Assembly: GCF_020524585.1 (NCBI RefSeq)
Contig: NZ_JAIVLK010000005.1
Location: 62,001 to 126,000 of the forward strand
Direction: 5' to 3'
Length of the DNA: 64,000 nt
DNA from: Celeribacter naphthalenivorans
Lineage (GTDB): Bacteria; Pseudomonadota; Alphaproteobacteria; Rhodobacterales; Rhodobacteraceae
How positions within the stretch are numbered: position 1 is the stretch's first letter; every line of letters begins with the position of its first letter. Positions 36,517-40,502 of this stretch are shown here, piece after piece. The notes beneath the pieces are model-generated. The model was not told the origin of the DNA, ran no database searches, and saw only the letters and a program-made list of their open reading frames with translations. The position numbers and the translations under genes are program-made.

Positions 36517-36723
36517 TTAAAGCGCAACAAGTTCAGAGGCGGATGCGCGTCCGTCGCGGCCTTCACGAAGTTCGTAGCCGATCTTCATGTTGTCTGCGAG
36601 GCCGGTCATGCCAGCGCGTTCGACCGCAGAAATGTGCACGAACACATCCTTGCCGCCGTCGTCAGGTGCAATAAAGCCGTAGCCTTTGGTGGTGTTGAAC
36701 CATTTCACGGTGCCAGTGGGCAT
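36517..36723 (-). CDS. Cold-shock protein (CspA family)
   Basis: 68 residues: one OB-fold cold-shock domain. RNP1 is KGYGFIAPD and RNP2 is VFVHIS; start MPTGTVKWFNTTKG is the usual CspA start. It binds single-stranded RNA/DNA as an RNA chaperone. AAGGAG lies 12 nt before the ATG. The upstream 110 bp to the arsC-like promoter region allow a long 5' UTR of the kind that regulates csp genes; no specific cold box can be claimed. Confidence 0.95.
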   Translation of the reverse strand: MPTGTVKWFNTTKGYGFIAPDDGGKDVFVHISAVERAGMTGLADNMKIGYELREGRDGRASASELVAL

Positions 36724-36952
36724 ATCCCCGTATCTCCTTATCGTTTCATCCGCCGCAACGTGCGACGGGCCGGTGCAGCCAGGTCTTCCAAGTCTTCCTG
36801 CTGCCCCGTAAGGAGCGGTCGTTCGAAAGTCAGCAGTCACGCTTTCGAGTGTGCAACACATCCGTATAAAGGCAAGCGACAAAATCGTAACAGATGGCCA
36901 AGGGCCGAAATTTGGGCAAAATGCCACCAAAACCGCCAATGAGGAGAGCGAA

Positions 36953-37264
36953 ATGACACTGATTTACGGGATCAAGACCTGTGACACCTGCCGAAAAGCG
37001 GGGAAATCACTGGGGGTTGAGCTGACGGATATTCGTGCAGAACCACTGTCCAATGAGCAACTTGAGCGATTCTATGCCCAGTTTGGTGAGGCATTGGTCA
37101 ACACCCGATCGACCACATGGCGCGGCTTGTCCGAGGGCGAACGCACCCGCGCGCCGCTCGATCTTTTGGCGGATCACCCGACGCTGATGAAACGTCCGGT
37201 GATCGAGAAAGACGGCCAGCTTTATCTCGGCTGGGGCAAGGATGTGCAGGCGGCGCTTCTTTAA
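36953..37264 (+). CDS. ArsC/Spx-family thioredoxin-fold protein (YffB-like)
   Basis: 103 residues: IYGIKTCDTCRKAG holds a CxxC at the start of a thioredoxin fold; STTWRGLSEGERT and LMKRPVIEKDGQLYLGWGKD match the short YffB/arsenate-reductase-like group. The arsenate-reductase triad of classic ArsC is not fully evident; many such proteins have glutathione-dependent or unknown roles. GAGGAGAGCGAA before ATG. It is 51 bp upstream of a small membrane protein gene. Confidence 0.87.
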   Translation: MTLIYGIKTCDTCRKAGKSLGVELTDIRAEPLSNEQLERFYAQFGEALVNTRSTTWRGLSEGERTRAPLDLLADHPTLMKRPVIEKDGQLYLGWGKDVQAALL

Positions 37265-37314
37265 TCTGTCTTCAGTAGCACCTATGTGACAGCGACAAGA
37301 GAAGGAGAGCGGAG

Positions 37315-37683
37315 ATGCGCAACGCGGCGCTGGTGCTTGGAATTTTGGGCGGCGTGCTCGCCATGTTCGTGGGGTTTTTCAGCTTTGGCTACACCGAGGC
37401 GATTGATCGCTGGGGCGAGGTCGAAGGGCTGTTCGAACAGGTGGCGAATGTCGATCTGATCCGGGCGGCGAGTTTTCTGGCTCCGATCCTTGCCATCGCA
37501 GGCGGCGCCATGGCCCACGCCCGTGCCCTTTGGGGCGGGGTGTTGATGTGGGCCGCGGCGGGGCTGATCTATGTCGGCTTTGGCTTCAACGTCTTTACCA
37601 TGTTCCCCTTGGGCTTTTGCGTGTTGGGCGGTTTGTTGGCACTGGCGGCGGGCAAACCGGACGAGGCAAAGGCGCATTTTTAA
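37315..37683 (+). CDS. Small four-helix membrane protein, unknown
   Basis: 122 residues with four predicted membrane helices (about residues 5-25, 50-66, 70-90, 96-113) and a short acidic loop (EAIDRWGEVEGLFEQ). I do not recognise a domain. GAAGGAGAGCGGAG is a strong ribosome site. Its stop overlaps that of the convergent DoxX gene by 4 bp (37680-37683). Neighbourhood with the bufferin operon may be chance. Confidence 0.75.
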   Translation: MRNAALVLGILGGVLAMFVGFFSFGYTEAIDRWGEVEGLFEQVANVDLIRAASFLAPILAIAGGAMAHARALWGGVLMWAAAGLIYVGFGFNVFTMFPLGFCVLGGLLALAAGKPDEAKAHF

Positions 37684-38216
37684 CTCCGGTTCAGGCGGTT
37701 GAAGATCAGCCGATCCACTGAGGCCCAACCTCCGCCAAGGCCCACAAGCGTGAGCAAGACCATCCCCCAAAGCGCGCGTTGGTCAAAGATCAGCGCATCG
37801 GAATGCCGATCGAACAGCGCGCCAATACTCGCCATGTCGAGACCATGCCCGATCACATCGGTGAGGCTTTGCACAAGGATAAATCCGATCATGCCAAGGG
37901 CCGCAAGCCGGGTCGCGAGCCCTAAAACGATGAGCAGAGGCAGGAGAAATTCGGCGTAGGTTCCCGCCATGATCACCAGCCACTCAAAGGCGCCAAAGCC
38001 CGAGATGTCATAGCCTGCAGCCTCCATTCTGCGTGGGAAAATCTGGGCATAGGCGTTGAAGGACGGGGTCAGAGGCCCCTCCAGTTTGGTCAGCGCCGAG
38101 GCCCAGAAATAGCGCAACAACACGGCGGCAAAGGTGAAACGTGCCAGCAGGGGCAGGGCGTTTATGGCACCCGCGTTGATCCGGTCCAGCTTGGTTGCGA
38201 ACATATCGTTAATCAT
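37680..38216 (-). CDS. DoxX family membrane protein of the bufferin operon
   Basis: 178 residues with four membrane helices. The LPLLARFTFAAVLLRYFWASALTKL start and EWLVIMAGTYAEFLLPLLIVLGLATRLAALGM match DoxX. It overlaps bufC by 8 bp (38209-38216), so it is the last gene of the bufA-bufB-bufC-doxX unit. DoxX proteins occur often beside DUF692/DUF2063/DUF2282 genes; their role there is unknown, possibly redox or quinone-linked help for peptide processing or copper handling. Confidence 0.9.
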   Translation of the reverse strand: MINDMFATKLDRINAGAINALPLLARFTFAAVLLRYFWASALTKLEGPLTPSFNAYAQIFPRRMEAAGYDISGFGAFEWLVIMAGTYAEFLLPLLIVLGLATRLAALGMIGFILVQSLTDVIGHGLDMASIGALFDRHSDALIFDQRALWGMVLLTLVGLGGGWASVDRLIFNRLNRS

Positions 38217-38943
38217 CGTGATCCCCCTCCAGAATGTCGATGATGGCGCCGCCTTTCAAAAGCGTGCCGAGAAACTGCGAAAGATCGAGGTCCGAGGGCG
38301 CCAGCTCTGCGGCATTCGCCAGCGCCATGCCATCCCGCAAAGCGTCGAGCACCGCGATGGTGCCGGGAGGGAAGGCCGTGGCGATTGGGTCATAGCCCGG
38401 ACGCGTGATCAGCACATCTTCCGCCCCGCCTGAGGGCCGGTCGCCGTCGAGGGCAAAGCGGCGCAATTTGGTGACGGGATAGGCGCTTGCGAGCCAGATC
38501 AGAGTGGGTGCGAGCACGACTTGGCGGGTGAACAACAAGGGATCGGAGAACTCTGCCGCAGGCACCGGGCATGTGTCCTCGGCGTGATAACTTTGGCGCA
38601 GCGCATATTCGAGACGCGCCACATCGGCGAGATAGGGCAGGCGAGAGGCCGGGGCAAAGCCGTCGATAAACTCCGCAAAATCAGCACCGTAAAGCGGCAG
38701 GATCGGCGTTTTGGGGGGATGCGCGCGGACATAGTCTCCGGTCATCGCCTCGAAAAATGCGTCTCCGACGAGGGATTTGACTGCGGGGTAGGAGGCGGCG
38801 ATGGCCTCTTTCAATCCGACAATGATGTTGTTGCGATAGACGTCAAAGCGCCGCGTGGCGGGGGCGCCCGAGGGGGTGATGAGACCCGTCGGAACGGGAG
38901 CCTCGGGCGCAAGTGCGGCTTGGATGAAGTCCTGCTGTCTCAT
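38209..38943 (-). CDS. bufC: BufC/HvfC family protein (DUF2063), partner of BufB
   Basis: 244 residues. N-terminal DUF2063 domain: FDVYRNNIIVGLKEAIAASYPAVKSLVGDAFF and YVRAHPPKTPILPLYGADFAEFI are family hallmarks. The C-terminal half (from about residue 110) is the alpha/beta part that in bufferin systems presents the precursor peptide to the iron enzyme. The start overlaps the bufB stop by 4 bp. In the known pathway BufB and BufC together turn precursor cysteines into thiooxazole heterocycles. The DUF name predicts DNA binding, which is not supported here. Confidence 0.9.
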   Translation of the reverse strand: MRQQDFIQAALAPEAPVPTGLITPSGAPATRRFDVYRNNIIVGLKEAIAASYPAVKSLVGDAFFEAMTGDYVRAHPPKTPILPLYGADFAEFIDGFAPASRLPYLADVARLEYALRQSYHAEDTCPVPAAEFSDPLLFTRQVVLAPTLIWLASAYPVTKLRRFALDGDRPSGGAEDVLITRPGYDPIATAFPPGTIAVLDALRDGMALANAAELAPSDLDLSQFLGTLLKGGAIIDILEGDHDD

Positions 38944-39812
38944 ACCAGCACCTGTTCGAGGCGGAGCGCGGCACGGGCGGCCTCAGAGGCCAGAACCTCC
39001 CACTCGGGCACATCCGTGTCCCATTCAATGAGCGTCGGCTTCGGCCCGGCTGTGGCCAGCGCATAGGTGTAAAGATGCCAAACCGGATCGGCGACCTCGC
39101 GACCGTGGCTGTCGATCAGTAGCGGCGCGCCGTCTTCGTCCTGATCCTCGTCATGACCGCCAAGATGAATTTCCCCCACGGCCTCATGCGGGAAAGCGTC
39201 GATATAGTCATAGGCGTCGATCCGCAGGTTGTTGGCGGAGACGAAAACATTGTTCACATCGAGCAAGAGCCCGCAGCCGGTGCGTTTCACAACGGCCCGG
39301 AGGAATTCGACCTCGCCGTAAGTGCTTTCCGCGAAAGCCAGATAGGAGGCGGGGTTTTCCAAGAGCATCTGTCGTCCGAGAGTGCTTTGCACCTCATCGA
39401 TATGATCGCAGACGCGGGCGAGGGTTTTGGCGGTATAGGGCAGGGGCAGAAGGTCGTTGAAATAGCCACTATGTGGCCCGGTGTCATGCGTTGACCAGGC
39501 GAGATGTTCGGAGAAAGAGGCGGGGCTGATCTCGTCGATGAGATGTTTCAGCCGGGCGAGGTGATCCGGGTCAAGTCGCCCCTCGCCGCCAATGGAAAGC
39601 CCCACACCATGCACGGAAATCGGAAACCGATCCGAGAGCGCGCGCAGCTGCGCCATCGGGCGACCGCCCGCGGCGCCTTTTTCGCCCATGTAGTTTTCTG
39701 CATGGATTTCGAGCCATTTCACCGGGTGTTCCCCCTCGGAAATGTTCGAAAAGTGCTTGGATTTATATCCCACGCCGACGCCCATCGGCAGCTGTTTTGT
39801 CTGGTCCAACAT
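38940..39812 (-). CDS. bufB: BufB, DUF692 multinuclear non-heme iron oxidative enzyme (MNIO)
   Basis: 290 residues, TIM-barrel MNIO (formerly DUF692), the family of MbnB. Expected metal-ligand motifs are all visible in order: EIHAENYMGE, SVHGVGLSIGG, SEHLAW, LENPASYL, LLDVNNVFVSANN, GEIHLGGHDEDQ and PVWHLY. It uses two or three iron ions and O2 to modify cysteines of the precursor peptide. It lies 69 bp downstream of the precursor gene with a strong hairpin between, and 4 bp overlapped with bufC. Confidence 0.95.
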   Translation of the reverse strand: MLDQTKQLPMGVGVGYKSKHFSNISEGEHPVKWLEIHAENYMGEKGAAGGRPMAQLRALSDRFPISVHGVGLSIGGEGRLDPDHLARLKHLIDEISPASFSEHLAWSTHDTGPHSGYFNDLLPLPYTAKTLARVCDHIDEVQSTLGRQMLLENPASYLAFAESTYGEVEFLRAVVKRTGCGLLLDVNNVFVSANNLRIDAYDYIDAFPHEAVGEIHLGGHDEDQDEDGAPLLIDSHGREVADPVWHLYTYALATAGPKPTLIEWDTDVPEWEVLASEAARAALRLEQVLV

Positions 39813-39842
39813 CGAAGCCTCCTGCAGGTTTGCGAAAATTGA

Positions 39843-39872
39843 CCCGGCGCATGTGGTCCGTCACGCGCCGGG
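39843..39872 (-). terminator. Inter-gene hairpin (attenuator) between bufA and bufB
   Basis: CCCGGCGC-AT-GTG, loop GTCCGT, CAC-GCGCCGGG: an 11-bp stem with a 2-nt bulge, 9 bp after the bufA stop. On the minus strand it is followed by TCAATTTTCG, a weak T-run. It could end a share of transcripts or protect the bufA mRNA end, giving more precursor than enzyme. Confidence 0.7.
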
Positions 39873-39881
39873 CCAAACCGG

Positions 39882-40199
39882 TTAGCTGTCCATCGGCAGG
39901 TCGCGTTCGAGCGCTTCGAGCGAGCCCATGCGCGCGGTGCCGTCCATCATGGCCGGAAGCTCGATGTCGGCGCAGGTGCCAGCGGGCACCAGTGTCCAGG
40001 CGTTGCCTTGGTAGTCGACTTTCGAGGTGCCGGCACAGGTCGTGCCCGGACCTGCCGCGCAGCCGTTCTCACCGGCCAACGCCACGCCGAAGCATTTTTC
40101 CTGTTCTTCCGCGGAGGCGGCGCCTGCGATGGAGAGGGCTGCGGTCATGGCGCCAAGAAGTGCCAGAGTTTTGGAATGGGTTTTGGATTGAGTGCTCAT
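39882..40199 (-). CDS. bufA1: BufA1-type bufferin precursor peptide (DUF2282)
   Basis: 105 residues. A Sec signal peptide (basic [10 protein letters not shown], hydrophobic core, cut after ASA at residue 30) precedes a mature 75-residue peptide. It carries the invariant [25 protein letters not shown] and VDYQGNAW motifs, then AGTC: four cysteines at 36, 47, 55 and 76. In the described bufferins (Caulobacter) the cysteines are converted in part to thiooxazoles by BufB/BufC and the exported peptide binds copper. The old label 'integral membrane protein' reflects only the signal peptide. First gene of the operon. Confidence 0.95.
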
Positions 40200-40502
40200 T
40201 GGGTGTGTCTCCCGTTAGGTTCATGCGTTTCCGCCGTCAGTGGCGGTGAGCACAGATTGGCCGAGCAAGGTGGTCACAGGCCATTCACGGGGACGTCACC
40301 TGACGCGTGTGTCAGGGGCTGAAACAAACGGGATTGTGATTTGATCCGGTGGGGAAACTGGTCCGCGACGCCCGCATTCACACTCTGGAATTTTTATGGG
40401 GCATCTATTTTGAGCGTATACTCAATTATTTATCGGCCAAAATCCGCCGATCTGCACCTGTAACAATTCTCACGCAAAACGCCATGTCGCGTGTGCCGCA
40501 AT
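40200..40502 (-). promoter_or_regulatory. bufferin operon control region (no gene)
   Basis: This stretch before bufA holds no convincing gene on either strand. It contains two inverted repeats: CCGCC-N6-GGCGG (40231-40246), which lies in the probable mRNA leader, and CCTGAC-GCGTGT-GTCAGG (40299-40316), a perfect dyad placed about 100 bp before the start codon as an operator would be. CGGGAGACACACCC is the ribosome site. I could not find a convincing copy of the ECF sigma-F promoter (GTAACC / CGAA) known for the Caulobacter operon. Confidence 0.5.
40299..40316. promoter_or_regulatory. Perfect dyad upstream of bufA
   Basis: CCTGAC-GCGTGT-GTCAGG: 6-bp arms and 6-bp centre. It is a candidate site for a dimeric (metal-responsive?) repressor or activator; nothing in the window identifies the protein. 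Confidence 0.45.

Follow-up and report, generated by a model that had tools for sequence, protein, structure and literature searches.

Tandem CenR-like boxes in the promoter of a bufferin-1 operon of Celeribacter naphthalenivorans point to probable control by the CenKR envelope system

Bufferins are modified peptides that bind copper and make up a large family, and a bufferin-type operon (bufA1, bufB, bufC and doxX) occupies positions 37680..40199, on the minus strand, of a 64,000-nucleotide stretch of the genome of Celeribacter naphthalenivorans (Rhodobacteraceae), hereafter the window. Its protein-coding part is an ordinary member of a known, recently described family; the part that is new may be the promoter. 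Upstream of bufA1, we identified two tandem boxes that resemble the binding sites of CenR, the essential response regulator of CenKR, a pathway that guards the envelope and cell division. Judged from sequence comparison, control of the operon by CenR is a well-supported prediction that we consider likely to hold, and the explanation as a whole, namely, a bufferin-1 operon activated by CenR through tandem boxes, is probable. The initial annotation of the window recognized the operon for what it is; regulation was missing from it, and the promoter with the CenR-like boxes was not described.

In Rhodobacter sphaeroides, CenR recognizes the motif TGA-N8-TGA, which lies directly upstream of the -35 element at 28 of the 31 published sites (PMC9275681; all papers cited by such numbers are drawn on here through excerpts of their text). 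The window promoter resembles this regulon in box sequence, length, TGA-N8-TGA spacing and the apparent place just upstream of -35, and differs from it in carrying two boxes in tandem. Scored with a matrix derived from the 31 sites, box 1, TGACACACGCGTCAG (40300..40314, minus strand, as are all elements and operon genes given below), ranks 15th of about 128,000 window positions, and box 2, TGACGTCCCCGTGAA (40284..40298), which follows 16 base pairs (bp) after box 1, ranks third; the architecture of box 2 is that of the published RSP_1199 site, TGACGCGGGCGTGAA. A weaker third TGA-N8-TGA copy, TGAATGGCCTGTGAC (40273..40287, rank 144), overlaps box 2. Immediately after box 2 comes a putative -35 element, TGGCCT (40278..40283), a role suggested by the T conserved at +15 across 129 aligned tandem promoters, and further on a putative -10 element, CAATCT (40254..40259), a weak match. 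CenR would bind the two boxes, immediately ahead of a -35 element of the housekeeping type, and thereby activate transcription, with envelope damage or copper as the possible signal.

This architecture is not peculiar to the window. Among the Rhodobacteraceae, bufA upstream regions are mainly of two kinds, bearing either a GTAAC...CGAA sequence (the sigma-F pattern) or tandem boxes like those of the window. The tandem kind consists of two TSACG-N4-YGTGA boxes, set at a phase of 15 bp in 118 of 129 promoters and of 16 bp in the other 11. After one locus without a start (L152) was dropped, 170 promoters remained, 136 of them linked to thrS, with the window counted among both. The thrS-linked promoters comprise 118 of the tandem kind, 6 with the sigma-F pattern and 12 with neither, and the 34 promoters for which no thrS was found upstream comprise 11, 15 and 8, respectively. 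The boxes are conserved in relatives, and a footprint matrix from 61 loci likewise counted in favor of CenR. When 198 genomes of the family were searched with the tandem consensus at no more than one mismatch, 45 places in 43 genomes were recovered (none with the reversed control), and bufA stood beside the motif in 29 of the 30 loci fetched from this search.

An independent test employed a matrix built solely from the 31 published R. sphaeroides sites. The tandem pair of the window scores 22.8, compared with a median of 1.5 and a 99th percentile of 12.8 for random 250-bp stretches of the window. Of the 136 thrS-linked promoters, 119 pass the tandem criterion (118 sorted as tandem and one sorted as sigma-F). 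Among the controls, 24 of 2720 mononucleotide shuffles, 26 of 2720 shuffles by dinucleotide block and 18 of 4000 stretches drawn at random from the window pass. For six other genes, the count is 7 of 574 upstream regions (thrS 0/89, csp 2/88, arsC-like 2/90, the small gene downstream of doxX 0/67, doxX 1/41, bufB 2/199).

What ties these boxes to CenR by name is the promoter of cenR itself. In genome G051, which appears to be that of R. sphaeroides 2.4.1, the box ACACGAGCGCGTGAG is located at C4:2597384, just before a gene for a CenR-like protein, and this sequence is the published site of cenR (RSP_0847) in R. sphaeroides, with a chromatin immunoprecipitation (ChIP) peak at 2597500 (PMC9275681); because the box equals the published site before the same gene, we take the regulator to be CenR. 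The published sites also include TGACGCAGCTGTGAA, alongside those of RSP_1199 and cenR (PMC9275681). The genome search found neither a DUF2282 nor an MNIO match in G051, a second difference from the window, and therefore, the CenR ChIP study could not have detected a bufferin target; Table 1 of the excerpted paper, with 31 rows, lists no bufferin operon (PMC9275681). At no more than two mismatches, 11 loci with tandem elements away from bufA were examined, many of them within reading frames. No recurring gene was seen by eye at these 11 (the other places at this threshold were checked against bufA in part), and the one kept, L216 of genome G171, lies at cenR: a tandem element with two mismatches (2040-2070) stops 55 bp short of the start of a gene for a response regulator, and the search of the family genomes gave no DUF2282 match in G171. 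Close relatives of this regulator are present in 94 of 100 genomes, that of the window included, where cenR (G000:C3:525595-526272) encodes a protein with Response_reg and Trans_reg_C domains that is 88% identical to the L216 protein and is preceded by the box ACACGCTTGCGTGAT, beginning 93 bp ahead of the start codon. In the cenR promoters of relatives, an NCACR-N4-YGTGW box occurs in 30 of 30 cases (29 with one box and 1 with two), compared with 9 of 4000 random stretches. Spacings of the CRP/FNR type and the LysR type were considered as well, on the basis of their consensus sequences, and dropped. Two further 1-mismatch elements deserve mention in their own right. In L093 (genome G063), the space between bufA and bufB holds a tandem CenR-like element, at about 1501-1531; in L096/L227 (G154), another is found away from bufA, near the start of genes that by eye encode an apparently exported Asp/Met-rich protein and a cytochrome b-like protein, an occurrence that may be due to chance.

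The near confinement of the full tandem element to the bufA operon would also fit a dedicated regulator, so that the boxes could be bound by another OmpR/PhoB-type protein, or by some activator that responds to copper and has a similar half-site, with CenR uninvolved. The 15/16-bp phase, which the excerpts of PMC9275681 do not mention for CenR, points in the same direction. We nevertheless consider such a regulator unlikely, given that each box has the length, the spacing and the letters of a published CenR site, and that the sole fitting element just upstream of a gene among the 11 loci away from bufA is the one at cenR. Moreover, the gap between thrS and bufA is no longer than 600 bp in 108 of the 118 tandem thrS-linked loci so that a linked regulator would hardly fit in, and in the longer gaps, read by eye, a helix-turn-helix gene was seen in one tandem locus only (L046). 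The notion of a linked regulator was dropped after 19 loci were inspected by eye, taking the genes between thrS and bufA, or those within 3 kb where thrS lay outside the stretch: sigma-F/NrsF genes were present in five, the helix-turn-helix gene in L046, and a TetR-like gene in L185, a locus of the sigma-F kind.

Two other explanations were weighed. The boxes might be a conserved passive feature rather than an activator site, for example, a hairpin in the RNA or a piece of the thrS terminator, and the element is indeed strongly palindromic, with the matrix scoring the opposite strand too in 124 of the 136 thrS-linked promoters. A passive feature is, however, hard to reconcile with the fixed distance to the -10-like element (in 94 of the 129 tandem promoters, the best TANNNT-like sequence is located at +38/+39 from box 2), with the recurrence of the tandem element at 11 of the 34 bufA genes that lack thrS linkage in the examined stretch, or with the placement of a box in promoters of the other kind: a box of at least 6 bits lies 3-5 nucleotides before the GTAA in 16 of 21 sigma-F-pattern promoters, as opposed to 20 of 4200 shuffles (at 9 bits, 15 of 21 as opposed to 2 of 4200). 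We therefore regard it as very improbable.

The second is transcription by a sigma-F-type extracytoplasmic function (ECF) sigma factor, as in Caulobacter. There, the DUF2282 operons depend on sigma-F, which they require under dichromate stress, and NrsF (CC3252) is the negative regulator (PMC3511200); the bufferin control described in the excerpted literature consists of sigma-F/NrsF, along with a mention of nearby transcriptional regulators (PMC13097082). Five inspected relatives (L142, L144, L173, L185 and L191), with promoters of the GTAAC...CGAA kind, carry a sigma-70-type gene and NrsF divergently beside bufA. The window differs on each count: the genome search yielded no NrsF match (ECF sigma genes fell outside that survey), no GTAAC...CGAA-type pattern was found upstream of bufA, and tandem CenR-like boxes stand in the promoter instead, which makes this route extremely improbable here. 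CenR control would stand in place of the sigma-F/NrsF switch of Caulobacter and some relatives.

The association of single boxes with sigma-F-pattern promoters suggests a broader picture, toward which we lean with somewhat less assurance than for the window itself: the bufferin operon of the Rhodobacteraceae would be a direct output of CenKR, with a CenR box common to bufA promoters, doubled where sigma-F plays no part and single where it is in use, and with CenKR and sigma-F acting as alternative or joint inputs. A quick tree of BufB (165 distinct proteins, each with at least 240 aligned residues) requires at least seven changes between sigma-F and tandem promoters; hence the switch, or transfer of the operon, would have occurred several times. 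Some loci assigned to sigma-F by pattern (L023, L061 and L075) may be false calls.

Several observations weigh against CenR control and have to be set beside this evidence. The regulator is named from a motif, and its sites are degenerate, with 47 places in the window above 9 bits; two of those elsewhere outscore box 2, and the box at the cenR gene of the same genome reaches only 9.5 bits. At a stricter pair score of 15, 94 of 126 promoters pass, and so do 6 of 24 promoters with the sigma-F pattern. As noted, 12 of the 136 thrS-linked promoters belong to neither kind. The scoring of the opposite strand also matters here, since the boxes are palindromic and the matrix alone thus leaves their orientation unfixed; it is the fixed position of the TANNNT-like element that would place -35 directly after box 2, and in the window, the -10 element is poor. 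A search of the window genome with the 15-bp-phase consensus at three mismatches found nothing; the window copy was missed because its phase is 16 bp, and a second pattern recovered it, along with 10 rows at two mismatches elsewhere in the genome and one control match. The excerpts of PMC9275681 are silent on CenR boxes in tandem, the excerpts of a paper on CenR of S. meliloti give no binding motif, and our literature search, with most subscription papers outside its coverage, found no paper linking CenR with copper peptides. The signal of CenK is unknown (PMC10470753), so that no link to copper follows from that side. Beyond the family, results are mixed: 28 of 30 loci were scored (L277 and L293 being too short), the sigma-F pattern occurs in 10 of the 28, and only L268 and L271 among these have an adjoining box of at least 10 bits; five other loci (L267, L272, L273, L281 and L282) have a box of at least 13 bits without the sigma-F pattern.

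The identity of the operon is on firmer ground, and it is almost certainly a standard bufferin-1 operon. The coordinates and reading frames assigned to the gene set by the initial annotation are correct, as are the overlaps it claimed, 4 bp between bufB and bufC and 8 bp between bufC and doxX, whereas bufA and bufB are separated by a 69-bp gap without overlap. The first gene, bufA1 (39882..40199), encodes a Buf1 (DUF2282) precursor of 105 residues, with the four cysteines at 36, 47, 55 and 76, just as annotated, and an N-terminus in which a hydrophobic stretch followed by ASA, read by eye, is an apparent Sec signal peptide. The search against DUF2282, which had been chosen beforehand as the test that could refute the bufferin assignment, places the peptide inside the family (83.3 bits, Pfam cut-off 22.4); in the NCBIfam search that identified BufB, no match was obtained for BufA. 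The product of bufB (38940..39812, 290 residues) is an MNIO bufferin maturase, scoring 363.2 bits against the NCBIfam equivalog model MNIO_BufB (NF050167, cut-off 310) and 334.1 bits against Pfam MbnB_TglH_ChrH (PF05114, cut-off 25). Its blocks HAEN, HGVGLSIGG, SEHLAW, LLENP, LLDVNN, IHLGGHD, DSHG and IEWD, which presumably hold the metal ligands, align with similar blocks of PDB 3BWW. The partner protein of BufB is encoded by bufC (38209..38943, 244 residues; DUF2063, 88 bits, cut-off 27.2), and a DoxX-family membrane protein by doxX (37680..38216, 178 residues; 35.8 bits, cut-off 23.6). These matches greatly exceed what chance would give. The DUF2282 match, together with a BufB score above the curated cut-off for bufferin maturases, bears out the bufferin-type reading, and the gene order, with DUF2063 in the partner of BufB, agrees with a Buf1 operon. 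The genome contains a single DUF692 match and a single DUF2282 match.

Among characterized systems, this operon has a counterpart in CC3254-CC3257 of Caulobacter, which we take to be the bufferin 1 operon of that organism. DUF2282, DUF692, DUF2063 and DoxX follow one another there in identical order (PMC3511200), and the precursor, the MNIO, the DUF2063 protein and DoxX are the bufferin core genes (PMC12452194). The HvfABC oxazolin operons, characterized by EGKCG repeats, likewise combine an MNIO, a DUF2063 partner and an exported precursor, and the HvfB model (PRK05409) does match BufB, at 224.4 bits. The window proteins, however, remain below the cut-offs of the Hvf models (HvfB 224.4/360, HvfC 46.8/142 and HvfX 20.7/80 bits), and hence the operon is of the bufferin rather than the oxazolin type; the EGKCG repeat was not found in the BufA precursor.

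By family membership, the biochemistry can be sketched as well. In Buf1, BufB and BufC convert the central two cysteines to thiooxazoles (PMC12452194, PMC13097082), the outer two being joined as a disulphide (PMC12452194), and the exported bufferin binds copper and aids growth in excess copper (PMC12452194, PMC13097082). Given that it is the central pair that is modified in the published case, Cys47 and Cys55 are the predicted modified pair here: BufA1 would be produced with a Sec signal peptide, BufB, a multinuclear iron enzyme, and BufC would oxidize Cys47 and Cys55 to thiooxazoles ahead of export, Cys36 and Cys76 would form the disulphide, and the mature peptide would chelate excess periplasmic copper, with DoxX as an accessory membrane protein to which no role is assigned. 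It is conceivable, if doubtful, that in this organism the peptide handles some metal besides copper in its stead, or a different stress: the gig operons got their name from induction by gold, the homologues in Caulobacter are responsive to chromium and cadmium (PMC12452194, PMC3511200), and MerC fusions exist (PMC12452194), but the characterized products of MNIO-PME1 clusters generally bind copper (PMC13097082). Two features of the peptide are of separate note. Past the DUF2282 match, the BufA tail carries G[ST]L..[LIMV].RD in 117 of 129 tandem-class proteins and 11 of 21 sigma-F-class proteins, and this conserved tail might be a recognition or folding element. Residue 46, preceding the second cysteine, is Gly in the window (GENGC); across 170 BufA proteins, Asp stands there in 161 and Gly in 9, and the window and Celeribacter relatives account for five of the latter.

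DUF2282 was detected in 211 of 295 genomes of the family and in 84 of 240 genomes of the class that were searched; four of the 211 (G007, G100, G204 and G233) have two matches each, those of G007 about 340 bp apart. In a set of 80 named loci, chosen as the best 80 by BufB similarity and hence biased to near relatives, bufA, bufB, bufC and doxX are found together in every one, and thrS comes ahead of bufA in 76; the closest of these named relatives was Celeribacter sp. PS-C1, with a BufB 96% identical. Downstream of doxX, the window contains, at 36517-37683, a small gene in convergent orientation (37315-37683) together with an ArsC-like and a cold-shock gene, and these three keep their place in 58, 75 and 71 of the 80 named loci, respectively. 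A second set of 91 loci consisted of the window locus (L002), the 30 best-scoring DUF2282 loci and 60 hand-picked from the places listed for the 211 genomes; L001, which is the same locus as L002, was excluded, and at least three genomes are present in both sets (L033/L137, L078/L159 and L084/L164).

If CenKR control of bufferins in the Rhodobacteraceae is borne out, periplasmic metal protection would be wired into an essential pathway of envelope maintenance and cell division. CenKR would, in turn, gain a measurable output, along with a hint that periplasmic metal or oxidative damage may feed into the pathway.

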